DNA of 64,000 nucleotides. Source: Pontibacter indicus (GTDB taxonomy: Bacteria > Bacteroidota > Bacteroidia > Cytophagales > Hymenobacteraceae). The translations under genes were made by a program, and so were the position numbers. Positions within the stretch are counted from its first letter, which is position 1; every line of letters starts with the position of its first letter. Below, piece by piece: positions 8,840 through 21,112 of this stretch. Where the stretch lies: the NCBI RefSeq assembly GCF_900156345.1, contig NZ_FTPP01000002.1, positions 558,001 through 622,000 of the forward strand, in the 5' to 3' direction. Below the pieces are notes generated by a model, which ran no database searches, was not told where the DNA came from, and was given only the letters and a program-made list of their open reading frames with translations.

Positions 8840-9057
8840 GATTGAGTGATTTAGTGAGTTAGTGATTGAGCGAATTAGTGATTGAGTGATTAGGTATAAG
8901 TTGGTGAATCTTGATTTAATAATTCGGGTAGTGATCGATTTATAATTCGTGCCAGCCTTTTAGAATAATCGGACCAATCATCAAGCTAATCACTGACACC
9001 TTTAATCAAAAAATAAAAAATCACTCATTCACTCAACCACTCAATCGCTAAATTACT
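8840..9057. repeat. Degenerate short-word repeat with inverted halves
   Basis: The left part (8840-8893) repeats variants of GATTGAGTGATTTAGTGA; the right part (9021-9057) is a reversed version (TCACTCATTCACTCAACC...). Together they make a long imperfect inverted repeat enclosing about 130 bases. The right arm crosses the pheS stop codon at 9048-9050, so the last codons of pheS lie inside the repeat. Confidence 0.6.
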
Positions 9058-10076
9058 CCTTTAAACTGTCGCAGGAAGCGCACGTCATTTTCGGTGAACA
9101 GGCGCAAGTCTTTTATCTGGTAGCGGAGCATGGTGATACGCTCGATGCCCATACCGAAAGCGAAGCCCGAGTATACCGTGGAGTCGATGTTGCAGTTGTC
9201 GAGCACGTTCGGGTCTACCATACCGGCGCCGCCAATCTCTACCCAGCCCGACTGCTTGCAGATGTTACAGCCTTCGCCTTTGCAGATAAGACACGAAATG
9301 TCAATCTCGGCGCTTGGCTCCGTGAACGGGAAGAACGACGGGCGGAAACGGATTTTGGTGTCCTGCCCGAACATCTCCTTGGCAAAATAATAAAGCGTTT
9401 CCTTGAGGTCTTTGAAGCTCACGCCCTTGTTTACGTACAGGCCCTCTACCTGCTGGAACACCATGTGCGCGCGCGCCGAGATGGCCTCGTTGCGGTATAC
9501 GCGGCCCGGCATGATGCTGCGCAGCGGCGGCTGGTTGTTCTCCATCAGGCGCACCTGCACGTTGGAGGTATGGGTACGGAGCAATTTATCGCGATCTTCG
9601 CTCAGGAAGAAAGTGTCCTGCATTTCGCGGGCAGGGTGGTTCTCCGGGAAGTTCAGGGCCGTAAAGTTGTGCCAGTCGTCCTCGATCTCCGGGCCGTCGG
9701 CCACGTTGAAGCCGATACGCTCGAAAATGCGCACGATCTCGGCGCGCACCAGCGAAAGTGGGTGGCGGGTGCCCAACGTATTAGGTATAGGAGGTAGCGT
9801 AAAGTCAAAAGCGTTTTCGGCTTCAGCTCCTGCCGAAGTGTTGGCCAGCTGCTCCTGTGCCTCATCGAAGCGGGCCTGAGCGCGGTTCTTGAGCTGATTC
9901 AGCTCCTGGCCCACCTGGCGGCGCTGCTCCGGCGCCACTGATTTCAGGTCATCGAAAAGGGCGGCGATGGCACCTTTGCGACCGATGTACGCGATGCGAA
10001 ACTGCTCCAACTCGGCAGCGCCTGTCAGCTGCGCGGCCTCTATCTCTTGTGCTACTCTCTGTATATTCTCAACCAT
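9048..10076 (-). CDS. pheS: Phenylalanine--tRNA ligase, alpha subunit
   Basis: Catalytic alpha subunit of the heterotetrameric PheRS. The 342-residue protein has the N-terminal coiled coil (about 1-85), class II motif 2 (MPGRVYRNEAISARAHMVF), a cysteine-rich CLICKGEGCNIC segment near 277-288 and motif 3 (GFAFGMGIERITMLRY). The frame extends upstream, but the ATG at 10076 gives the expected MVENIQRVAQEIEA start. pheT is not adjacent, which is usual in Bacteroidota. Confidence 0.95.
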   Translation of the reverse strand: MVENIQRVAQEIEAAQLTGAAELEQFRIAYIGRKGAIAALFDDLKSVAPEQRRQVGQELNQLKNRAQARFDEAQEQLANTSAGAEAENAFDFTLPPIPNTLGTRHPLSLVRAEIVRIFERIGFNVADGPEIEDDWHNFTALNFPENHPAREMQDTFFLSEDRDKLLRTHTSNVQVRLMENNQPPLRSIMPGRVYRNEAISARAHMVFQQVEGLYVNKGVSFKDLKETLYYFAKEMFGQDTKIRFRPSFFPFTEPSAEIDISCLICKGEGCNICKQSGWVEIGGAGMVDPNVLDNCNIDSTVYSGFAFGMGIERITMLRYQIKDLRLFTENDVRFLRQFKGVI

Positions 10077-10082
10077 AGTATG

Positions 10083-10115
10083 CAAAGATAATAATTTGAG
10101 AAATGCGAACGCCAA
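10083..10115 (-). promoter_or_regulatory. pheS promoter, very close to the start codon
   Basis: On the minus strand TTG (10115-10113) is followed after 22 bases by TATCTTTG (10090-10083), matching TTG-N17-23-TAnnTTTG. Only six bases separate the -7 element from the pheS ATG, so the transcript would be leaderless or nearly so. Confidence 0.5.
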
Positions 10116-10223
10116 AATAAGGCGCTTTGCTATACCTTGCCAATCGGTAAACAAATGCTAACTTGGTTTACCGACGCCAACCGGCCGTTCACCGACTTCT
10201 GTACCAGAGTAGCCTATTAGCCA

Positions 10224-10254
10224 TTGAAGTGGGCTTTAGCTTCTTATACCTTTG
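10224..10254 (+). promoter_or_regulatory. Promoter of the LiaF-like/LytS/LytR operon
   Basis: TTG at 10224-10226, 20-base spacer, TACCTTTG at 10247-10254; 32 bases to the ATG. The -7 element overlaps a copy of the window-wide word TATACC. Confidence 0.6.
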
Positions 10255-10286
10255 GAACAGATCTTAAAACTAAACGAAATAAAACC

Positions 10287-11135
10287 ATGAAAAATCAAGA
10301 TTACAATAGAGGCGGTTCCGGCAAAATGGCTGGCGTATTTCTCCTGATGGTGGGCGTTCTCTTGCTCACTGCCAAAATGGGCATTTTCTTTCTGCCGGGC
10401 TGGGTGTTCTCCTGGCCGATGTTCCTGATCGCACTGGGTGTTTACTTGGGTTTCAAGCACTCGTTCCAGAAACCGAGCTGGCTGGTGCTGATCGTGATCG
10501 GTGGCGTTTTCCTGCTCGACAAGCACTTCTTCCTGGACTTTAACCTGAAGATGTATTTCTGGCCGATCCTGATCATTGGTCTGGGTCTTTGGCTGATCAT
10601 GAAGCCTAAAAAGCGCAACCCTTGGGAAGCACAGATCAATGCCAATCCTAACCCGAGACCAGAGGACACACCCGGCTATTACACCGATCCGGTGAATGGC
10701 GCTTACCCCGGTGGCTATACCGACTATACCGGCGACGAAGCTTACACAGCCAATGGCTACGATGGCACGCAGGGCTACACGGCTGGCGGACCCGAAGACC
10801 AGCTCGACAGTGTGGCAGTGCTAGGCGGGATAAAAAAAAACATCGTCTCTAAAAACTTCAAAGGAGGCGAAGTGGTGAGTGTGTTCGGCGGCACGGAGCT
10901 CAACCTGATGCAGGCCGACATTCAGCACCCCATTGTACTGGAGGCTACTCAGATATTCGGAGGCACCACATTGATCGTACCCCCGCACTGGCAGGTGAAG
11001 TCCGACGAGATGGTGGCCATACTGGGCGGCATTGACGACAAGCGACCGGCCATGCCACAGGGCTACGACCCGAATAAAGTGCTCATCCTGAAAGGCACCA
11101 CGCTGTTTGGCGGACTAAGCATTAAGAGCTACTAA
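10287..11135 (+). CDS. LiaF-like envelope-stress membrane protein
   Basis: A 282-residue protein. The N-terminal half has four membrane helices of the LiaI/LiaF type (about 14-35, 39-56, 62-80, 88-106). A Gly/Tyr/Asp-rich linker follows (about 125-185; repeats of GYTDYTGDEAYTANGYDG type). The C-terminal beta-strand domain (about 190-282) carries repeated LGGIKKN, FGGTELN, FGGTTLI and LGGIDDK turns typical of LiaF. LiaF proteins restrain the sensor kinase of cell-envelope stress systems; here a LytS-type kinase and LytTR regulator follow at once (1-base gap), so a negative partner role is likely. The start is the ATG at 10287; the open frame to 10224 would include the promoter. Confidence 0.78.
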   Translation: MKNQDYNRGGSGKMAGVFLLMVGVLLLTAKMGIFFLPGWVFSWPMFLIALGVYLGFKHSFQKPSWLVLIVIGGVFLLDKHFFLDFNLKMYFWPILIIGLGLWLIMKPKKRNPWEAQINANPNPRPEDTPGYYTDPVNGAYPGGYTDYTGDEAYTANGYDGTQGYTAGGPEDQLDSVAVLGGIKKNIVSKNFKGGEVVSVFGGTELNLMQADIQHPIVLEATQIFGGTTLIVPPHWQVKSDEMVAILGGIDDKRPAMPQGYDPNKVLILKGTTLFGGLSIKSY

Positions 11136-11136
11136 T

Positions 11137-12195
11137 ATGGAGGGGGTGGCATCGCAGGTGCGCCTGGGGCTGCTATACCTGGGCTGGGCTTTGCTCTGGT
11201 CGGTGGTGCAGGTGCTGGTGCTCTGGCCTACAGGCTTTGAGAGGCACATCATGGTGACGGATGCGTTGCTTACCAACCTGCTGCTGGCCATTGGCGGCTT
11301 TGCCATGGGCACGGGGCTGCGCTACTACCAGCCCAGCTTGCGACAGGCGGGTTTCCTGCTGGGCTGGAGCCTGGGGCTGGCAGGTATAAGCGCCACCGTC
11401 TTCTACTGGAGCACCCATACCTTGTTCGAAAGCAACGCGCTATACCTTCGATTTGTGGACAGCACACTGGCGATCAGGGTAGCGTTTAACTGGCTGATGC
11501 TGCTCCTGATGCTACTCCTGACCTGGCTCTGGTTCTATACCCGTGAGTTGCAGGAGGCCGAAAAGCGCAAGGCCGCCACAGAGAAACTGGCCCGCGAGGC
11601 CGAGCTCTATAACCTGCGCCAGCAATTGCAGCCGCACTTTCTGTTCAACAGCCTCAACTCCATCAGCGCCCTGGCGGTGAGTCGGCCGGAGCAGGCCCGT
11701 ACCATGGTGCAGCAGCTGTCCGATTTTCTGCGCGGCACCCTGCGCAAGGACAACAGCCAGCTGGTGCCTTTGGCGGAAGAACTCAAGCAGTTGCAGCTAT
11801 ACCTGGACATCGAGAAAGTGCGCTTCGGGCACCGCCTGCAGGTAGAGGTAGAGGCCACCGAAGAGAGCCAGGAGATGAAGTTACCCGTATTGTTGCTTCA
11901 ACCAGTGGTGGAAAATGCCATCAAGTTCGGGCTCTACGATACGGTGGGGGAGACGGCCATCAAAGTAAAAGCGACGATAACAGACGGCTACCTGACCATC
12001 ACGACCCAAAACCCCTACGACCCCGCCACGAGCCAGCCCCGCAAAGGCACCGGCTTTGGGCTCGACTCCATCCGGCGCAGGCTATACCTGCTCTATGCCC
12101 GCCAGGACTTGCTGAACACCACGCAGCAGGACCACCAGTTCACAACTACCATCAAAATACCCCAACACTATGAAAAAATGCCTGATAATAGATGA
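11137..12195 (+). CDS. LytS/YehU-type sensor histidine kinase
   Basis: A 352-residue inner-membrane kinase: four hydrophobic segments in residues 8-138, a short coiled coil (RELQEAEKRKAATEKLAREA), then the His_kinase domain with QLQPHFLFNSLNSISAL, phospho-acceptor His167, and the ATP-binding region with PVLLLQPVVENAIKFGL and KGTGFGLDSIRRRL. It has no extracytoplasmic sensor domain, so it probably senses through the membrane or its LiaF-like partner. Its last 26 bases overlap the regulator gene, which implies coupled translation. Confidence 0.9.
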   Translation: MEGVASQVRLGLLYLGWALLWSVVQVLVLWPTGFERHIMVTDALLTNLLLAIGGFAMGTGLRYYQPSLRQAGFLLGWSLGLAGISATVFYWSTHTLFESNALYLRFVDSTLAIRVAFNWLMLLLMLLLTWLWFYTRELQEAEKRKAATEKLAREAELYNLRQQLQPHFLFNSLNSISALAVSRPEQARTMVQQLSDFLRGTLRKDNSQLVPLAEELKQLQLYLDIEKVRFGHRLQVEVEATEESQEMKLPVLLLQPVVENAIKFGLYDTVGETAIKVKATITDGYLTITTQNPYDPATSQPRKGTGFGLDSIRRRLYLLYARQDLLNTTQQDHQFTTTIKIPQHYEKMPDNR

Positions 12196-12913
12196 CGAAC
12201 CGCTGGCCCGCAGCATAGTGGCCGAGTACCTGCAGGCTTACCCCGAGCTGCAGGTAATGCAGGAGTGCGGCGATGGTTTTGAAGGTGTCAAGGCCATTAT
12301 GCAGCACCAGCCCGATCTGATCTTCCTCGACATCCAGATGCCCAAGATCAATGGCTTCGAGATGCTGGAGCTCGTGGAGCAGGCGCCTGGTGTCATCTTC
12401 ACCACCGCCTTCGACGAGTACGCCATCAAAGCTTTCGAAACCAATGCCGTCGACTACCTGCTCAAGCCGTTTAGCCGGGAGCGCTTCGATGCAGCCATAC
12501 GCAAGTGGCTCCAAAACCAGAAAACGGCGGAGGCTCTACCTGTTACCACCGCCCTGGAAGAGGCCACTGGCAAGCAACCGGAAGAGCAGCACCGCATTGT
12601 GGTGCGGGCTGGCAACAACATCCGCATCATCCCTGTGGCTGATGTGCTATACCTAGAGGCCTACGACGACTATGTGAAGATCCATACCCGTGACGGCGTG
12701 TTCCTGAAAAAGAAGACGATGGGCTACTATGAAAAGGCGCTCGATCCGTCGCAATTCGTGCGGGTGCACCGCTCCTACATCATAGCCCTCTCGCAGCTCA
12801 CCCGCATCGAACCCTTCGAGAAAGACAGCCACATGGCCCTGCTGCGCAATGGGCAGCGCATACCTTTAAGCAAAAGCGGCTATACCCGCCTGCGTACTGT
12901 GCTTGGCATTTAG
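12170..12913 (+). CDS. LytTR-family response regulator
   Basis: A 247-residue partner of the preceding kinase. The receiver domain (1-120) has the acidic pair Asp8-Asp9, phospho-acceptor Asp54 (LIFLDIQMP) and Lys99 (YLLKPF). The C-terminal LytTR DNA-binding domain (about 140-247) shows the typical VLYLEAYDDYVKIHT and FVRVHRSYIIAL motifs. It probably binds direct repeats upstream of target promoters; none could be assigned here. The spacer that follows (12914-13130) holds no gene that I can see. Confidence 0.93.
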   Translation: MKKCLIIDDEPLARSIVAEYLQAYPELQVMQECGDGFEGVKAIMQHQPDLIFLDIQMPKINGFEMLELVEQAPGVIFTTAFDEYAIKAFETNAVDYLLKPFSRERFDAAIRKWLQNQKTAEALPVTTALEEATGKQPEEQHRIVVRAGNNIRIIPVADVLYLEAYDDYVKIHTRDGVFLKKKTMGYYEKALDPSQFVRVHRSYIIALSQLTRIEPFEKDSHMALLRNGQRIPLSKSGYTRLRTVLGI

Positions 12914-13130
12914 ATAGTATAACTGATGGCAACAGCGTTGCATTCATCTGATTATGAATAGTGTTTTTGCTTTTCAGAGTCAGAATATCAGCGTCTGAAT
13001 CAGCTTTTGCCCTGTTCGTCTAAATAATTTTTTCCCTCCCCGAAAACCTGACAAATTTGTCTCGCCTTGGGTGGCACCTAACTTACACTGTCATGCAAAA
13101 CATTGGCGGAATAATTCTGTTATTCCTTTG

Positions 13131-13160
13131 CGGAAACTTTGGTGATCTAAAACGTTTCCG
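13131..13160. promoter_or_regulatory. Putative TetR operator
   Basis: CGGAAAC (13131-13137) and its exact reverse complement GTTTCCG (13154-13160) are separated by 16 bases. The arms bracket the -33 TTTG and touch the -7 element of the TetR gene promoter, the position expected for an autoregulatory operator. Confidence 0.5.
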
Positions 13161-13168
13161 TAGTTTTG
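13138..13168 (+). promoter_or_regulatory. Promoter of the TetR/RND efflux operon
   Basis: TTTG at 13138-13141, 19-base spacer, TAGTTTTG at 13161-13168: an excellent match to the Bacteroidota consensus. The ATG of the TetR gene is 16 bases downstream of the -7 element. Confidence 0.7.
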
Positions 13169-13184
13169 CCGCGGAATTATAAAA

Positions 13185-13817
13185 ATGGAAACATCCATAC
13201 AGCCATCGGTAAAAGATAAGATCGCAGCAGAGGCATTCAGGCTTTTCTGTCGGCGAGGCATTAAAGGCACCTCGGTTGACGATCTTGCCCAGCACCTCTC
13301 CATGTCGAAAAAGACCATTTACAAATGGTTTAGCAACAAAGATGAGATCGTGCTTTGGGCCATCAACTCATACCTGACCTCGGTGGACACAGATTGCGAG
13401 CAATGCAGGCATAAGGCGCCCAATGCCATCGAAGAGCTTTTCGCAGTCATGAAAACCACCCGGGAGGTCTTTGCCAGCATTCACCCGGGCATCTTTTACG
13501 ATCTGCAGAAATACCACGGCGATGCCTGGAACAAGTGGCAGGAGTACAAGAACCATCACTTTCTGAACCGCATCAAGGACAACCTGGAGCGGGGTATGGC
13601 GGAGGGTTTGTTCCGCAAAGACCTGGATGTGGAGGTGATCGCCCGCCTGCGTCTGGCCCAGATCGAAGTGCCCTTCGACGAAACGATCTTCCCACGCTTC
13701 AAATTTGAGCTGCTGCACGTGCAAACGGCCAGTCTGGAGCACTTTATGCTCGGCATCGCCACGCTCAAAGGACATAAGATGATCAACGACTACAAGCAAA
13801 TCACTGAAGAAGAATAA
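13185..13817 (+). CDS. TetR/AcrR family transcriptional regulator
   Basis: A 210-residue repressor. The N-terminal helix-turn-helix (about 10-55) reads AAEAFRLFCRRGIKGTSVDD ... HLSMSKKTIYKWFSNKDEI, a strong TetR signature; the remainder is a helical ligand and dimer domain with no assignable family. It is the first gene of the efflux operon (19 bases before the TolC-like gene) and its promoter carries an inverted repeat, so it most likely represses itself and the pump until an inducer binds. The inducer cannot be told from the sequence. Confidence 0.92.
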   Translation: METSIQPSVKDKIAAEAFRLFCRRGIKGTSVDDLAQHLSMSKKTIYKWFSNKDEIVLWAINSYLTSVDTDCEQCRHKAPNAIEELFAVMKTTREVFASIHPGIFYDLQKYHGDAWNKWQEYKNHHFLNRIKDNLERGMAEGLFRKDLDVEVIARLRLAQIEVPFDETIFPRFKFELLHVQTASLEHFMLGIATLKGHKMINDYKQITEEE

Positions 13818-13836: not shown

Positions 13837-15309
13837 ATGAAAAAACACAGTAGTCTGTTATTGGCATTGTTCGTCTTGCTCAGCCCGTTTGGTGTGCTGG
13901 CGCAAGACTCGCCGCGGACCTTTAGTTTGCAGCAGAGCATCGACTACGCGCTGCAGAACCGCGTCAACCTGAAGGTAAACCGCAACGAAGAAGAGATCGG
14001 CAAGGCAAAGGTAGGCGAGATCCGGGCCATGGGTTTGCCGCAGATCAACGCCAACGCGGAGGTAGGTAATAACTTCATCCAGCAGAAAACACTGTTTGAC
14101 CCAAGCAGTTTCGGCACCGCCTCCCAACTGGATCCTTTTGTGATCACGCCGGAGCAACTCGCCTCCGGGCAACCCATTGTGCTCAGCCCCACCTATTCCC
14201 AGCCGGAACCGCAGCCGTCGGGCGGGCTGCAGGCCATTTCTTTTGTGCAGCCCTATAACGGCGGGCTCACCATCACGGGCAGTCAGCTCCTGTTCGACGG
14301 CTCATACCTGATCGGGCTCAAAGCGGCCAAAACCTACACCGAGCTCTCCCGCAAAACGACGGCGCAAAGCGAGATAGAGGTGGCCGAGCAGGTTTCCAAG
14401 GCCTACTACAGCGTGCTGGTGAACCGGGAGCGCATGGAGCTCCTGCTGCAGAACATGGTGCGCCTGGACACGCTGCTGAAGCAGACACAGGTGATGTTCG
14501 ACAATGGGGTGGCCGAAAAGCTGGACGTTGACCGCCTGCGCGTGTCGTTCAACAACCTCAATGTGGAGAAGCAGAAGACCGAGCGTTTGCTCATGCTGAG
14601 CGAGCACCTGCTCAAGTTCCAGATGGGAATGAACCAGAACGAACAGCTGGTGCTGACCGACAAGCTGAGTGAGGTGGAAGTGGATGTGGAGAAAGGCAAC
14701 CGAAACAACTTCAACTACAGCAACCGCATCGAGTATTCCCTGCTCGAAACACAGCGCGACCTGGCCCTGCTGGACCTGCGCAACAAACGCTCCGGCTACC
14801 TGCCCAAGCTCTACCTGAACGGGCGCTATGGCTACATTGGAGTGGGAAGAACCTTCTCCGACATCATGCACATCCGGGCCGGGCGGGACAACACGACCGA
14901 CCGGAATTACTTTGACTTCGGGTATGTCGGGGTGCAGCTGCAGGTGCCGATTTTTGACGGCCTGCTCAAGCACTACCAGATACAGCAGTCCAAGCTGACG
15001 CTCGAAAACACCAAGATCGGGTTCGAAGGCCTGAAGCAGAGCATCGACCTGCAGTTGGAGCAATCCTCGACTGACCTGACCAACTCACTGGATGTGCTGA
15101 CGTCACAGCGCGAGAACCTGGAGCTGGCCGAGGAGATCGCCCGCGTGGCCAAGATCAAGTTTCAGGAGGGCGTGGGCTCCAACCTGGAGGTGGTGACGGC
15201 CGAAACCGACCTGCGCCAGGCCCAGACCAACTACTACGCCGCCATGTATGACGCCCTGATCGCGAAAGTGAACCTCGACAAAGCCACTGGCACCCTACTC
15301 ACAAAATAA
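13837..15309 (+). CDS. TolC-family outer membrane efflux protein
   Basis: A 490-residue outer-membrane channel with signal peptide MKKHSSLLLALFVLLSPFGV ending in LAQ. Two OEP-type halves are visible: the family start SLQQSIDYALQNRVNLKVNR near residue 30, long heptad-rich helices (about 165-260 and 395-480) and the C-terminal SNLEVVTAETDLRQAQTNYY. It forms the exit duct of the tripartite pump encoded with the next two genes. Confidence 0.92.
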   Translation: MKKHSSLLLALFVLLSPFGVLAQDSPRTFSLQQSIDYALQNRVNLKVNRNEEEIGKAKVGEIRAMGLPQINANAEVGNNFIQQKTLFDPSSFGTASQLDPFVITPEQLASGQPIVLSPTYSQPEPQPSGGLQAISFVQPYNGGLTITGSQLLFDGSYLIGLKAAKTYTELSRKTTAQSEIEVAEQVSKAYYSVLVNRERMELLLQNMVRLDTLLKQTQVMFDNGVAEKLDVDRLRVSFNNLNVEKQKTERLLMLSEHLLKFQMGMNQNEQLVLTDKLSEVEVDVEKGNRNNFNYSNRIEYSLLETQRDLALLDLRNKRSGYLPKLYLNGRYGYIGVGRTFSDIMHIRAGRDNTTDRNYFDFGYVGVQLQVPIFDGLLKHYQIQQSKLTLENTKIGFEGLKQSIDLQLEQSSTDLTNSLDVLTSQRENLELAEEIARVAKIKFQEGVGSNLEVVTAETDLRQAQTNYYAAMYDALIAKVNLDKATGTLLTK

Positions 15310-15342: not shown

Positions 15343-16491
15343 ATGAAAAAGATATTTGGAGTTTCATCGCTTGCGCTGTTCCTAAGCTTGGCTGCCTGCA
15401 ACCAGGGCAACGACAAAGAGGCGCAGCTGGCCGAACTGAAACAGCAGCAGACCGAACTGCAGGAGCAGATCGCTAAACTGGAGGCAGAGCTGAAGGAAGA
15501 AGGCAAGGGCGGCCCGGTTGAAAAGAAAACGGTGCCGGTAACCGTGGCGCAGGTGCAGCAGAATACTTTCCGCCACTATGTGGAGGTACAGGGCCGGGTG
15601 GACTTTGACCAGAACGTACTGGTGAGTGCCAAGGTGCCGGGCGTGCTGACAGGCGTGCGGGTGAAGCGCGGCGACAAAGTGACCAAAGGCCAGACCATGG
15701 CCACCATCGATGCACAGGTGCTGGAGCAAAACATCGCCGAGGTACGCACCCGCCTGGAACTGGCCAATGTCGCCTACGAGCGCCAGAAAAACCTTTGGGA
15801 CCAGAAGATCGGCACTGAGATGCAGTTCCTGACGGCCAAGAACAACAAAGAGGCGCTGGAGCGTAACCTGGCCGCCCTGCAGCAGCAGCGTGACCAATTC
15901 AATATCAAAGCACCTGTGAGTGGCGTGGTGGACGATGTGATTCCGAACGCCGGGGAGGCCGTGGCGCCCGGCGTGGGCATCATCCGGGTGGTGAATACCA
16001 ATGGCGGCAAGATCGTGGCGGAGGTGTCGGAAGCCTACCTGACCAAGGTGAGCAAAGGCGACGAGGCGCTGGTGCGCTTCCCGGACCTGAACCAGGAAAT
16101 AACCGCCACTGTGGACGTGGTGAGCAGCTTCATCAACCCGAGCAGCCGCACCTTTACCATCGAGCTGCGGCCTAAGAATGTGGAGGTGGCGCTACGCCCG
16201 AACCTGGTGGCCGTGGTGCGCATTCAGGACTACCGCAAGGAAGACGCCATTATTATACCTGTCAACCTGGTGCAGCGCGACGAGAAAGCGCAGTATGTGT
16301 ACGTGGCCCAGAAACAGGGTGAGCGCTACGTGGCCACCCGACGCGAAGTGGAAACAGGCGTGAACTACCAGGGGCAGGTAGAGGTGCTGAAAGGGCTGAC
16401 AGCGCAGGACTACATCATTACAGCCGGCTACCAGAGTGTGAACGAGGGGCAGCCGGTTGTCTTCAACCAGGAGAGCATCGCGCAGCAGTAA
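15343..16491 (+). CDS. RND efflux periplasmic adaptor (membrane fusion protein)
   Basis: A 382-residue lipoprotein (lipobox LAAC, Cys19) with an early coiled coil (about 25-55, Glu/Gln/Leu-rich), then the HlyD/AcrA order: lipoyl half (VQGRVDFDQNVLVSAKVPGV ... GVRVKRGDKVTKGQ), alpha hairpin (LEQNIAEVRTRLELANVAYE onward), second lipoyl half (IKAPVSGVVDDVIPNAGE) and beta-barrel domain. It links the permease to the TolC-like duct. The extra coiled coil right after the lipid anchor is longer than in AcrA. Confidence 0.92.
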   Translation: MKKIFGVSSLALFLSLAACNQGNDKEAQLAELKQQQTELQEQIAKLEAELKEEGKGGPVEKKTVPVTVAQVQQNTFRHYVEVQGRVDFDQNVLVSAKVPGVLTGVRVKRGDKVTKGQTMATIDAQVLEQNIAEVRTRLELANVAYERQKNLWDQKIGTEMQFLTAKNNKEALERNLAALQQQRDQFNIKAPVSGVVDDVIPNAGEAVAPGVGIIRVVNTNGGKIVAEVSEAYLTKVSKGDEALVRFPDLNQEITATVDVVSSFINPSSRTFTIELRPKNVEVALRPNLVAVVRIQDYRKEDAIIIPVNLVQRDEKAQYVYVAQKQGERYVATRREVETGVNYQGQVEVLKGLTAQDYIITAGYQSVNEGQPVVFNQESIAQQ

Positions 16492-16509: not shown

Positions 16510-19500
16510 ATGAAATATTTCAAGCCGACCAATTGGGCCATTGATAATAGAACGAGTATCTACATCATCACCCTGATCATCGCGGTATGGGGTATATTCT
16601 CATACATCACGCTTCAGAAAGAGAACTTTCCCGACATCGTGATCCCGACGGTGTTTGTTGGCACGGTATACCCGGGCACCTCCCCGGCTGATATCGAAAA
16701 CCTCGTAACACGGCCCATTGAAAAGCAGCTGAAGTCCATTTCAGGGGTGAAGAAGGTGAGCTCCAATTCCATTCAGGACTTCTCCATGATCACGGTGGAG
16801 TTCAACACCGATGTGGATGTGGTGGAGGCCAAGCAACTGGTAAAAGACGCTGTGGACAAGGCCCGCACCGACCTGCCGACCGACCTCGACCAGGACCCGG
16901 ACGTGCAGGAGGTGAACTTCTCTGAATTCCCGATCATGTACATCAACGTGTCGGGCAACTACAGCCTCGACCGTCTGAAAAAGTACGCCGAGGACATCCA
17001 GGACCGCATTGAGGCGCAGCCCGAGATCACGCGCGTGGACATGGTGGGCGCGCTGGACCGGGAGGTGCAGGTGAACGTGGACCTCTACAAGATGCAGGTT
17101 GCGCAGATGACTTTTGCCGACATCAGCCGGGCCATCGCCTCTGAAAACGTGACGGTGTCGGGTGGCAACATTTCGGTGGGCGAGATGAAGCGCTCGGTGC
17201 GAGTGGTAGGCCAGTACACCGACCCGAACAAGATCGGCGACATCGTGGTGAAGTCGCTGTCGGGCGCTAACGTACAGCTCAAGGAGATTGCGGAGGTGAA
17301 AGAGGGTTTTGAGGAGCAGGAGAGCTTTGCCCGCCTGGACAACTCACCCGTTATCACGCTCAACATAATCAAGCGAAGCGGCGAGAACCTGATCGAGGCG
17401 TCCGACAACATTCATGCCTTGGTAGAAGAGATGCAGGCCAGCGTGCTGCCAGGCGACCTCAAGATCACCATCACCGGCGACCAGTCCACCATGACGCGCC
17501 ATACCTTGAACGACCTGATCAACACAATCATCATCGGCTTCGTGCTGGTGACCCTGATCCTGATGTTCTTCATGGGTACCACCAACGCCATTTTTGTGGG
17601 CCTGTCGGTGCCGATCTCCATGTTCATTGCCTTCATGCTGATGCCGGTGCTGGGCTTCTCGCTCAACATGATCGTGTTGTTCTCCTTCCTGCTGGCGCTG
17701 GGCATTGTGGTGGACGATGCCATTGTGGTGATCGAGAACACGCACCGTATTCTGCACCAGTCCAATCTGGGTATAATCAAGTCGGCGAAGCTGGCTGCGG
17801 GCGAGGTGTTTATACCTGTGCTGGCCGGTACGCTCACTACCGTGGCGCCGTTCCTGCCGCTGGCCTTCTGGCCAGGTATAGTAGGGGAGTTCATGTTCTT
17901 CCTGCCCATTACACTCATTGTTACACTGATGGCCTCGCTGTTGGTGGCGTTCATCATGAACCCCGTGTTTGCCGTGTCTTTCATGAAGAGGGAGCACGAA
18001 CAGGAAGCTGACGTGTCGCCGCGCGCCCGTCGTAACTTCTGGCTACTGATAGGGAGCGCCGCATTGGTGGCCATCGTGGGTTATCTGGCTGGCTGGTATG
18101 GTACGGCCAACCTGATCATGCTGGTTGTGGTGCTGGTGCTGCTCAACCGCTTTGTGTTCCGCCGCATGATCCACGGCTTCCAGAACACTACCTTGCCGCG
18201 CTTCATGCGGGGCTACGAGCGCCTTTTGCGCTGGATGCTGGTGGGCAGGCGCCCGGTCTGGATGTTTCTGAGCATGTTCGGGCTACTTATTTTCTCTATT
18301 TTCCTGACAGCGGTTCGGGCTCCCAAAGTTGTATTCTTTCCGGATTCTGATCCCAACTTCGTGTATACCTACATCAGCATGCCGGTGGGCACTGATCAGC
18401 TTGTGACTGACTCGGTTACAAAAGAAGTCGAGCGGCGCATCTACCGCGTGATCGGCGAGGGCAACACCGACGTGGAATCGGTTATTTCCAATGTGGCCAT
18501 CGGCGCCGGCGACCAAAACGACCGCAGCGTGACTGCACAATCTCATTTAGGAAAGGTTACCGTAGCCTTTGTTGAGTATCAATACCGGACCGGCGAGCGC
18601 AGCACGCAGGATTACATGAACGAAATACGGGAGGCGGTGCGCGGTATACCGGGCACCAACATCACGGTGGACAAAGAGCAGAACGGTCCGCCGGTGGGCA
18701 AGCCGATCAGCGTCGAGATTGCCGGCGAGGACTTCGAGGGACTGGTGGCGCTGTCGAAGCAAGTGCAGACCTACATCGAGCAGCAGCAGATCGGAGGTAT
18801 AGAGGAGCTTCGCAGCGACCTGGAGGACAGCAAGCCGGAGATCATCATCAACATCGACCGGGAGCGCGCCAACCGCGAAGGCATCAGCACCGGGCAGATC
18901 GGGATGGAGCTGCGAACGGCCATTTTCGGTGAGGAGGCCTCCAAGTTTAAGCTCGACGAAGAGGAGTACCCGATACAGGTGCGCTACGCTGAGCCATACC
19001 GCAAAAACATCGACGCCTTGCTGGGCATGCGCATCACGTACCGCGACATGAACAGCGGGCAGGTGCGCCAGATACCGCTCTCGTCGCTGGCAACAATAGA
19101 GTACGGTACCTCATACGGAGGTATCAAGCGCAAGGACCTGAAACGCGTGGTTACGCTGGAGTCGAACGTGCTGGACGGGTATAACGCCAATGAGGTGGTG
19201 CAGAACATCGGCAGTGCCCTGCAGAATTTCCAGACCCCTGAGGGCTATGAGATCAGCATGGGTGGGCAGCAGGAAGAGCAGCAGGAGTCAGCCAACTTCC
19301 TGATGATCGCTTTGCTGGCAGCGTTCCTGATCATCTTCCTGGTGCTGGTGACGCAGTTCAACTCCATCTCGAAGCCGTTCATCATTCTGTCCGAGGTGCT
19401 CTTCAGCATCATCGGTGTGCTGCTGGGCTTCTCCATTTTCGGCATGGATGTGTCGGTCGTAATGACAGGTGTGGGCATTGTGGCACTGGCAGGCATTGTG

Positions 19501-19944
19501 GTGAAAAACGGCATCCTGATTGTGGAATTTACGGACCTGCTGATAGAAGAGGGCCGCGACCTGAAAGAAGCGATTGTGGAAGCGGGCAAAACGCGCCTGA
19601 ACCCCGTGCTGCTGACGGCGACGGCCACTATACTAGGCCTGATACCCTTGGCGTTAGGTATAAACCTGAACTTTTATACCCTGTTCACAGAGTTCAAGGC
19701 GAACTTCTTTATGGGAGGCGACAGTGCCGCTTTCTGGGGGCCGCTGGCCTGGACCATCATTTTTGGCCTGGGATTTGCGACCATCATCACGCTCCTGATT
19801 GTGCCGGTCATGTACCTGCTCAATGAGAAGCTAAGAGCTAAAGTAAAAGGAGAGAGAAAGCCCGCAGGCGGCGTAAAAATTATACCTCAGAATGAAACAG
19901 AGGTGCCTGTAAATGGAAAAGTAGTTAGAGAATACACCCAATAA
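16510..19944 (+). CDS. RND-family efflux permease (AcrB type)
   Basis: A 1144-residue proton-driven inner-membrane pump with 12 membrane helices in the usual 1+5+1+5 layout and two large periplasmic loops. Helix 4 carries the proton-relay Asp pair in LALGIVVDDAIVVIENTHRI, and the second half shows GIVALAGIVVKNGILIVEF. The protein is about 100 residues longer than AcrB. A segment GGDSAAFWGPLAWTIIFGL precedes the last helix. Substrate unknown; the set could export drugs, bile-like detergents or lipids. Many Ile codons here are ATA inside GGTATA or ATACC words. Confidence 0.94.
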   Translation: MKYFKPTNWAIDNRTSIYIITLIIAVWGIFSYITLQKENFPDIVIPTVFVGTVYPGTSPADIENLVTRPIEKQLKSISGVKKVSSNSIQDFSMITVEFNTDVDVVEAKQLVKDAVDKARTDLPTDLDQDPDVQEVNFSEFPIMYINVSGNYSLDRLKKYAEDIQDRIEAQPEITRVDMVGALDREVQVNVDLYKMQVAQMTFADISRAIASENVTVSGGNISVGEMKRSVRVVGQYTDPNKIGDIVVKSLSGANVQLKEIAEVKEGFEEQESFARLDNSPVITLNIIKRSGENLIEASDNIHALVEEMQASVLPGDLKITITGDQSTMTRHTLNDLINTIIIGFVLVTLILMFFMGTTNAIFVGLSVPISMFIAFMLMPVLGFSLNMIVLFSFLLALGIVVDDAIVVIENTHRILHQSNLGIIKSAKLAAGEVFIPVLAGTLTTVAPFLPLAFWPGIVGEFMFFLPITLIVTLMASLLVAFIMNPVFAVSFMKREHEQEADVSPRARRNFWLLIGSAALVAIVGYLAGWYGTANLIMLVVVLVLLNRFVFRRMIHGFQNTTLPRFMRGYERLLRWMLVGRRPVWMFLSMFGLLIFSIFLTAVRAPKVVFFPDSDPNFVYTYISMPVGTDQLVTDSVTKEVERRIYRVIGEGNTDVESVISNVAIGAGDQNDRSVTAQSHLGKVTVAFVEYQYRTGERSTQDYMNEIREAVRGIPGTNITVDKEQNGPPVGKPISVEIAGEDFEGLVALSKQVQTYIEQQQIGGIEELRSDLEDSKPEIIINIDRERANREGISTGQIGMELRTAIFGEEASKFKLDEEEYPIQVRYAEPYRKNIDALLGMRITYRDMNSGQVRQIPLSSLATIEYGTSYGGIKRKDLKRVVTLESNVLDGYNANEVVQNIGSALQNFQTPEGYEISMGGQQEEQQESANFLMIALLAAFLIIFLVLVTQFNSISKPFIILSEVLFSIIGVLLGFSIFGMDVSVVMTGVGIVALAGIVVKNGILIVEFTDLLIEEGRDLKEAIVEAGKTRLNPVLLTATATILGLIPLALGINLNFYTLFTEFKANFFMGGDSAAFWGPLAWTIIFGLGFATIITLLIVPVMYLLNEKLRAKVKGERKPAGGVKIIPQNETEVPVNGKVVREYTQ

Positions 19945-19947
19945 TAT

Positions 19948-20205
19948 ATGATTGCAACAACAGACAAGACTATTGAGCGTGAGGTAATCCGTATCATTAG
20001 CAAAACGAAGGAGATTAGACCTGCCCGTTTGCAGGCAAATGCCCGTCTGGAAAAGGATTTCGGCTTTGATGTGGTGGATGTAGTGGATATCATCCTGGAG
20101 CTGGAGAAGAATTTCCAGATCACTATTCCGGACGAAGTCCCGATTAACACAGTAGGCGACTTCGTGGACTTTGTGGCGTCGCACGCGATGCAGAAAGCCA
20201 GCTAA
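19948..20205 (+). CDS. Acyl-carrier-like protein lacking the phosphopantetheine serine
   Basis: An 85-residue protein with the four-helix ACP pattern: REVIRIISKT, RLEKDFGFDVVDVVDIILEL and FQITIPDEVPINTVGDFVDF align well with ACP. However, the invariant Asp-Ser-Leu at the start of helix 2 reads Asp41-Val42-Val43, so no 4'-phosphopantetheine can be attached at the usual site. It starts 3 bases after the permease stop and is followed by a terminator, so it is the last gene of the efflux operon. It may be a structural or regulatory partner rather than an acyl carrier. Confidence 0.82.
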   Translation: MIATTDKTIEREVIRIISKTKEIRPARLQANARLEKDFGFDVVDVVDIILELEKNFQITIPDEVPINTVGDFVDFVASHAMQKAS

Positions 20206-20230
20206 TTAAAGGTATAACGTTATAAACAGA

Positions 20231-20266
20231 AGCGGCCGGGGTGCAAACCCCGGCCGCTTTTTATTT
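20231..20266 (+). terminator. Terminator of the efflux operon
   Basis: AGCGGCCGGGGT and ACCCCGGCCGCT form a perfect GC-rich stem around GCAA, followed by TTTTATTT. Confidence 0.92.
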
Positions 20267-20371: not shown

Positions 20372-21112
20372 TTAGTAAATGGAAATGCGGTAGGCTTTTA
20401 GTTTCTGGTCCAGTGCCTTGGAGTTCGGGCAAACCTTGTCGAGCAGGTTCCAGAAGCCCGGGCCGTGGTTCTTCTCAATGGTGTGCGCCAGCTCGTGCAG
20501 GATCACGTAATCGCAGAGTGAGTCGGGCAGGCGCATCAGGTGCAGGTTCAGGTTGATGTTGTTGGTGTGCGAGCAGCTCCCCCAGCGCGACTTGGCGTTT
20601 TTGATGAACACGTTCTGGTAGTCGAAGCCGAACTTGTCGGCAAAGAGCTTCACGCGCTCCGGCAGGTACGCCTTGGCCTCCTTGCGGTAGGCCTCCTCAA
20701 TCGACTTGCGGATGAACTTCTGCACATCGTTGTCGCGCACGTCTTTATAGGCCGGGTAGAACACGTTGATGTAGCCGTTCTCGATCACACAGCGCATGGT
20801 ATACTGGGCGTGCGTGAGCAGGCGCAGGGTATGGCTGCGGGTCCGGAAGTCGGTATTGCCATCGTACATGGTCACGCGCGCCTCCTGCTGCTTCATGCGG
20901 GCCTGGTGCTCCTTTATCCAATCGCTCTTGGTATAAATAAGCTGTTCGGCTTTCTCGAAGCTGATGTGAGGCGGCACTGCCACACGTATGCCTTTGATGG
21001 GGCGCACGCTAATGCTAAGGCGCTTGGCCTTGTCGCTTCGTTCGATCAGAACCTTCCCGATTCCGTCGATGTGAAGATTAACGGATGTTAGTCGTAGAAA
21101 TGAAGAAGACAC
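20372..21112 (-). CDS. YgjP-type (DUF45) M48-like metallopeptidase
   Basis: A 246-residue probable zinc peptidase. The active site is HELAH at 206-210 with a third His at 216 in NHGPGFW, and the family hallmark KNAKSRWGSCS lies at 171-181. There is no signal peptide, so it is cytosolic. YgjP-family proteins are often encoded beside restriction or stress genes, but here the gene stands alone. It has its own promoter (21148-21180). Substrate unknown. The spacer at 20267-20371 shows nothing recognisable. Confidence 0.85.
   Translation of the reverse strand: MSSSFLRLTSVNLHIDGIGKVLIERSDKAKRLSISVRPIKGIRVAVPPHISFEKAEQLIYTKSDWIKEHQARMKQQEARVTMYDGNTDFRTRSHTLRLLTHAQYTMRCVIENGYINVFYPAYKDVRDNDVQKFIRKSIEEAYRKEAKAYLPERVKLFADKFGFDYQNVFIKNAKSRWGSCSHTNNINLNLHLMRLPDSLCDYVILHELAHTIEKNHGPGFWNLLDKVCPNSKALDQKLKAYRISIY

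Follow-up and report, generated by a model that had tools for sequence, protein, structure and literature searches.

The window analysed here comprises 64,000 nucleotides of a Pontibacter indicus contig and contains a TetR-TolC-adaptor-RND efflux operon whose final gene encodes ACPL1, a protein resembling acyl carrier proteins (ACPs) but without the serine that carries phosphopantetheine (Table 1). The permease stop codon lies 3 bases before the ATG of ACPL1, so that both the terminal position and the 3-base gap described in the original prediction were confirmed. An inverted repeat followed by a T run lies downstream of ACPL1 and forms a strong hairpin; the scan gives the stem on the minus strand, and the plus-strand T tail was read from the sequence. 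On the basis of gene order and this probable terminator, we infer that ACPL1 is co-transcribed with the TetR-controlled efflux system. The interval between pheS and ACPL1 holds a LiaF-like gene, a LytS/LytTR-type kinase and regulator, the TetR gene and the pump (window 9048-13817). On the other side, a YgjP-like metallopeptidase gene (20372-21112, minus strand) is convergent to ACPL1 and is syntenic in most genera, including the genomes in which the pump is missing.

Table 1. Features of the ACPL1 operon, in coordinates of the window.
Feature	Position	Strand	Basis
TetR-family regulator	13185..13817	+	profile matches
TolC-family outer-membrane protein	13837..15309	+	profile matches
Periplasmic adaptor (RND_mfp)	15343..16491	+	profile matches
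RND permease RND1, 1144 aa, ACR_tran	16510..19944	+	profile matches
GTTAGAGAATACA, element with nucleotide-level conservation in the final permease codons, ahead of the ACPL1 start	19924..19936	+	sequence comparison
ACPL1, Ser-less ACP-like protein, 85 aa	19948..20205	+	ORF, Pfam, fold, orthologues
Codon 42 of ACPL1, GTG (Val), at the phosphopantetheine Ser position	20071..20073	+	alignment with solved ACPs
Inverted repeat then T run, probable operon terminator after ACPL1	20230..20259	+	repeat scan and sequence

The Pfam PP-binding profile matches ACPL1 with an E-value of 4.7e-6, exceeding the gathering score, and the curated ACP models of NCBIfam match it below every cut-off (for TIGR00517, 53.3 bits versus the 70.45 needed). 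The AlphaFold model of ACPL1 (mean pLDDT 84) has helices at residues 3-21, 42-56 and 69-84, while the segment corresponding to helix III is non-helical; around this helix ACPL1 is 2 residues shorter than ACPs. The model agrees with solved ACPs at a TM-score of about 0.8 and an rmsd of about 1 Å, showing that the ACP fold is present, and the top Foldseek matches are ACPs without exception, including AcpM chains from MmpL5 complexes. The profile match, the model and the solved structures thus bear out the earlier claim of a well-kept ACP fold. A canonical, Ser-bearing ACP is encoded at a separate site in the same genome.

Alignment with solved ACPs places Val42 of ACPL1 at the Ser of the Asp-Ser-Leu motif, exactly the replacement originally proposed. 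The proposal had also called for a survey of homologues, and Ser is missing at this position from all 126 distinct sequences, in which the residues are T (93), I (10), V (7), P (4), N, Q and L (3 each), M (2) and A (1). A local mutation of the Ser is therefore rejected. At least 20 changes have occurred in this column on a tree built without it. We make no claim that selection avoids Ser here, as other Thr-rich columns also lack Ser. In E. coli ACP, the S36T variant cannot receive the phosphopantetheine arm and is non-functional (PMC3340395), which makes the Thr-type ACPL1s very unlikely carriers, and the forms with V, I, P, M, L or A cannot act as carriers at all. A working carrier modified on Thr or on another residue would fit the predominance of Thr at the position, but given the behavior of S36T and the occurrence there of V, I, P, M, L, A, N and Q we regard it as very improbable; ACPL1 is almost certainly a non-carrier.

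ACPL1 is a core gene of the whole family. A match at 1.1e-25 or better was found in all 120 sampled family genomes (six genus codes), whose named loci include Pontibacter, Rufibacter, Sabulibacter, Botryobacter, Adhaeribacter and Hymenobacter, and every genus-mate among the relatives has the gene. In an even draw of the order at a threshold of 1e-20, 45 of 45 family genomes matched and none of 246 others did. No Ser-less protein of the ACPL1 type was found outside the family among about 630 other genomes of the class; class-wide matches outside the family occur in one genus only, at about 1e-18, and were rejected as ACPL1, the three that were inspected being ordinary ACPs with the Ser. An RND1 orthologue was found in 116 of the 120 family genomes, and at 75 of 80 named loci an intact permease lies directly upstream of ACPL1 (RND1 at 74, RND2 at one), the other five being orphans, so that the search for the same gene pair in related genomes, suggested at the outset, reveals a linkage to RND operons that is conserved family-wide, across six genera. 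We found no report of this pair in the open-licence literature. The loss of the prosthetic-group Ser might suggest a decaying ACP duplicate riding along with the operon, but its universal presence in the family, its many near-invariant positions and dN/dS values far below 1 (see below) rule this out for practical purposes.

Related proteins accompany further RND systems. A paralogue, ACPL2 (36-49% identical to ACPL1 in Pontibacter), follows a different TolC-adaptor-RND operon, the permease of which, RND2, shares about 26% identity with RND1. Between Pontibacter and Rufibacter, RND2 identity is about 83%, but the Rufibacter RND2 partner groups with Rufibacter ACPL1 in a free tree; separate recruitment of ACPL2 in the two genera is favoured by this tree but not proved (AU p 0.18). 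An ACP-like copy is also present in two Adhaeribacter RND2 operons, several genomes have RND2 without an ACPL2 of its own, and one Hymenobacter copy follows an adaptor-RND3-TolC set, other Hymenobacter copies not being near RND genes. Extra Ser-less copies, with L, Q, P or A at the position, were seen at four Hymenobacter loci (L116, 7081-7392; L117, 7186-7494; L118, 7429-7710; L119, 7394-7666), and only that of L119 follows an RND operon. One Pontibacter genome also has a highly divergent ACP-like ORF without the Ser (L125, 2736-2987), which adjoins a glycogen-debranching-type gene and has no RND gene nearby.

The genomes that have lost the pump are particularly informative. RND1 is gone in four of the 120 family genomes and, in addition, in Pontibacter harenae, and in all five (two Pontibacter and three Rufibacter) ACPL1 is intact and in place, with the YgjP-like gene as its neighbour. 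Four of them, P. silvestris, Rufibacter psychrotolerans, Rufibacter sp. XAAS-G3-1 and R. immobilis, have also lost the TetR, TolC, adaptor and adjacent two-component genes, leaving ACPL1 adjoining pheS, and two of these four retain a decayed permease remnant; in P. harenae, a permease remnant is flanked by surviving TetR and ACPL1 genes. As the deletions differ in extent, they represent more than one event. Loss of the pheS-ACPL1 interval as a block was observed in several species (loci L082, L124, L128 and L129), never reaching into ACPL1. Comparisons among the Rufibacter orphans and their pump-bearing relatives give dN of 0.005-0.10 and dS of 0.6-2.2, for a dN/dS of about 0.008-0.07; the selection so measured may partly predate the loss of the pump, some losses being possibly recent, and in the Pontibacter orphans synonymous sites are mostly saturated. 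Other RND pumps remain in every orphan genome, and ACPL1 might serve these in trans. We conclude with considerable confidence that ACPL1 is under selection and independent of this particular pump.

On the permease side, we found no feature that would mark a dedicated partner. No ACP-like gene was found downstream of RND1 orthologues in other families (44-59% identical), and no docking site was found in the permease that tracks the presence of ACPL1: permeases with and without ACPL1 have a similar basic cytoplasmic region between TM6 and TM7, no family-specific basic docking region was seen, and the C-terminal tails vary by genus, those of Rufibacter being almost absent. Permeases of Hymenobacter and of the genus coded g25 have a similar C-terminus, often ending in [TR]P[PA][IV]LAEY, that is absent in other genera (L089, L090, L092). 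The tail VNGKVREYT was considered as a general ACPL-binding motif and rejected, as it is confined to Pontibacter and its conservation is at the nucleotide level. The element GTTAGAGAATACA in these last permease codons is conserved across Pontibacter even at loci with a frame-shifted (L001) or decayed (L015, L016) permease, and AGA is used in 32 of its 32 Arg codons. It occurs as a single copy in the genome, which excludes a regulon defined by it, and it probably serves the expression of ACPL1.

Across 104 ACPL1 sequences, no variation occurs at D44, E53, P61, D62, E63 and D71 and very little at D41 and D47; the acidic docking face of helix II hardly varies, with the docking residues D41, D44, D47, E53, D62 and E63 kept in 102 to 104 of the sequences. 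The same set has a conserved basic patch of K19, K21 and R27, and position 54, the counterpart of E48 of AcpP, is K or R, opposite in charge to the acidic docking residue of ACPs. The median pI of ACPL1 is 5.8 and its net charge about -2, versus 4.05 and -15 for the canonical ACP of the same genome. E. coli AcpP was also included in the charge comparison, but the weight rests on the genome's own protein.

A structural precedent is available in the mycobacterial AcpM, of which residues D40, V45, E46, E52, D53, Y55 and D61 contact the transporter MmpL5 (PMC11633376). With a one-residue offset, these map to D41, V46, D47, E53, K54, F56 and D62 of ACPL1, all conserved except position 54, where the charge is reversed (D53 to K/R). 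If D40, E46, E52, D53, Y55 and D61 are considered, five of the six are kept, and because other partners of ACP use this face too, this conservation does not point to any one of them.

Very probably, then, ACPL1 acts through a binding partner and is more than a component of this pump. The original prediction had raised the possibility of an ACP-like pump subunit. The operon linkage behind that idea is conserved and recurs at a second and once at a third RND system, and neither outcome that the prediction had named as refuting it, Ser-bearing homologues beside RND permeases or an unconserved linkage, was observed. An obligate subunit of this pump is nevertheless not supported: five pump-less genomes keep ACPL1, orthologous pumps elsewhere do without it, RND2 frequently has no copy beside it, and no permease feature tracks it. 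What is left of the subunit reading is a weaker version in which ACPL1 acts in trans. We suggest instead, with a probability that we place near the midpoint of the scale, that ACPL1 is a trans-acting, non-carrier binding protein with an ACP fold, co-transcribed with the pump without being an obligate subunit of it. On this reading, an ACP paralogue was converted into a binding protein unable to take the 4'-phosphopantetheine arm; it retains the ACP fold and the acidic helix-II face, no longer has the remaining negative charge of ACP, has acquired a basic patch of K19, K21, K24 and R27, and lacks, in the model, helix III. It would act in trans on a partner common to the whole family, the likeliest class being proteins of the cytoplasm or membrane that present a basic surface for ACP docking, for example a lipid-synthesis enzyme or regulator that normally docks holo- or acyl-ACP, and it would occupy, tune or scaffold this putative partner while the efflux operon is on. 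That the target lies in lipid or ACP metabolism is a tentative and somewhat unlikely proposal. The idea of an ACP mimic, also put forward originally, is compatible with the data, and a dedicated non-carrier mimic of RND operons, linking pump expression in trans to lipid/ACP metabolism (or to several transporters) and outliving the pump, is a real possibility if short of an expectation. Several points weigh against a trans-acting protein of this kind: the linkage to RND genes is so consistent, and recurs at so many further RND operons, that the pump can hardly be irrelevant; other RND pumps that ACPL1 might serve persist in every orphan genome; the K or R at position 54 reverses an acidic docking residue of ACPs; and some of the pump losses may be recent.

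A serious rival is a transporter-binding accessory, in which ACPL1 would dock to RND permeases (RND1, and others in trans) from the cytoplasmic side and stabilise or gate the trimer, in the manner of holo-AcpM on mycobacterial MmpL5 but without the arm. The operon linkage at named loci, the paralogues beside RND2 and RND3, the MmpL5-AcpM precedent (PMC11633376, PMC12501195) and the correspondence of AcpM D40, V45, E46, E52, Y55 and D61 to conserved ACPL1 residues all speak for it. We nevertheless consider it possible rather than probable: to the pump losses, the orthologous pumps without ACPL1, the genomes with RND2 and no ACPL2, and the permease with no family-specific cytoplasmic feature and with genus-specific tails must be added that the MmpL5 contact D53 is K or R here and that a protomer-bridging arm is impossible in ACPL1. 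The opposite view, a physiologically unrelated neighbour with a house-keeping binding role, placed on the pump's transcript through ancestry alone, would account for ACPL1 persisting without the pump and for the Hymenobacter copies away from RND genes; it is improbable in light of an adjacency maintained over six genera and of the paralogues that accompany further RND operons in Pontibacter, Adhaeribacter, Rufibacter and one Hymenobacter.

ACPL1 is probably annotated as an ordinary acyl carrier or phosphopantetheine-binding protein, an annotation that would be wrong. A conserved non-carrier with an ACP fold means that the docking role of ACP has been set apart from its carrier role, and its RND link stands alongside the recent MmpL5-AcpM structures. 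Whether ACP-like proteins bind or tune RND transporters, and whether efflux is coupled to lipid synthesis, become testable questions, and the natural pump-less strains offer a ready test of which ACPL1 partner matters.

Among known systems, ACPL1 shares with AcpP (TIGR00517, PF00550) the four-helix-type fold, the D-x-[VL]-D of helix II, the IPDE motif, the hydrophobic core and the acidic helix-II face. It differs in having no phosphopantetheine Ser, in its sub-cut-off NCBIfam scores, in the K or R at the equivalent of AcpP E48 and, relative to canonical ACP, in its shorter length, the absence of helix III from its model and its far smaller negative charge. The operon encodes a standard tripartite system (ACR_tran, RND_mfp and TolC) with a TetR regulator, but adds an ACP-like cytoplasmic protein as its last gene, which orthologous pumps elsewhere lack. 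The original prediction also stated that AcrB co-purifies with ACP in E. coli; we found no such report in the open-licence literature. In E. coli, ACP is known to use helix II to dock partners outside fatty-acid synthesis, namely SpoT and MukB (PMC3340395); there the ordinary ACP is used, whereas here a separate non-carrier paralogue would be. A further parallel is AcpM, which sits in its holo form on the mycobacterial RND-superfamily transporter MmpL5/MmpS5, its phosphopantetheine bridging MmpL5 protomers (PMC12501195). In both cases an ACP-fold protein is linked to an RND transporter, for ACPL1 through its operon, and the MmpL5-contacting residues are mostly kept in ACPL1, but AcpM is a working holo meromycolate ACP, whereas ACPL1 lacks the Ser, is dedicated and has its gene within the RND operon itself.
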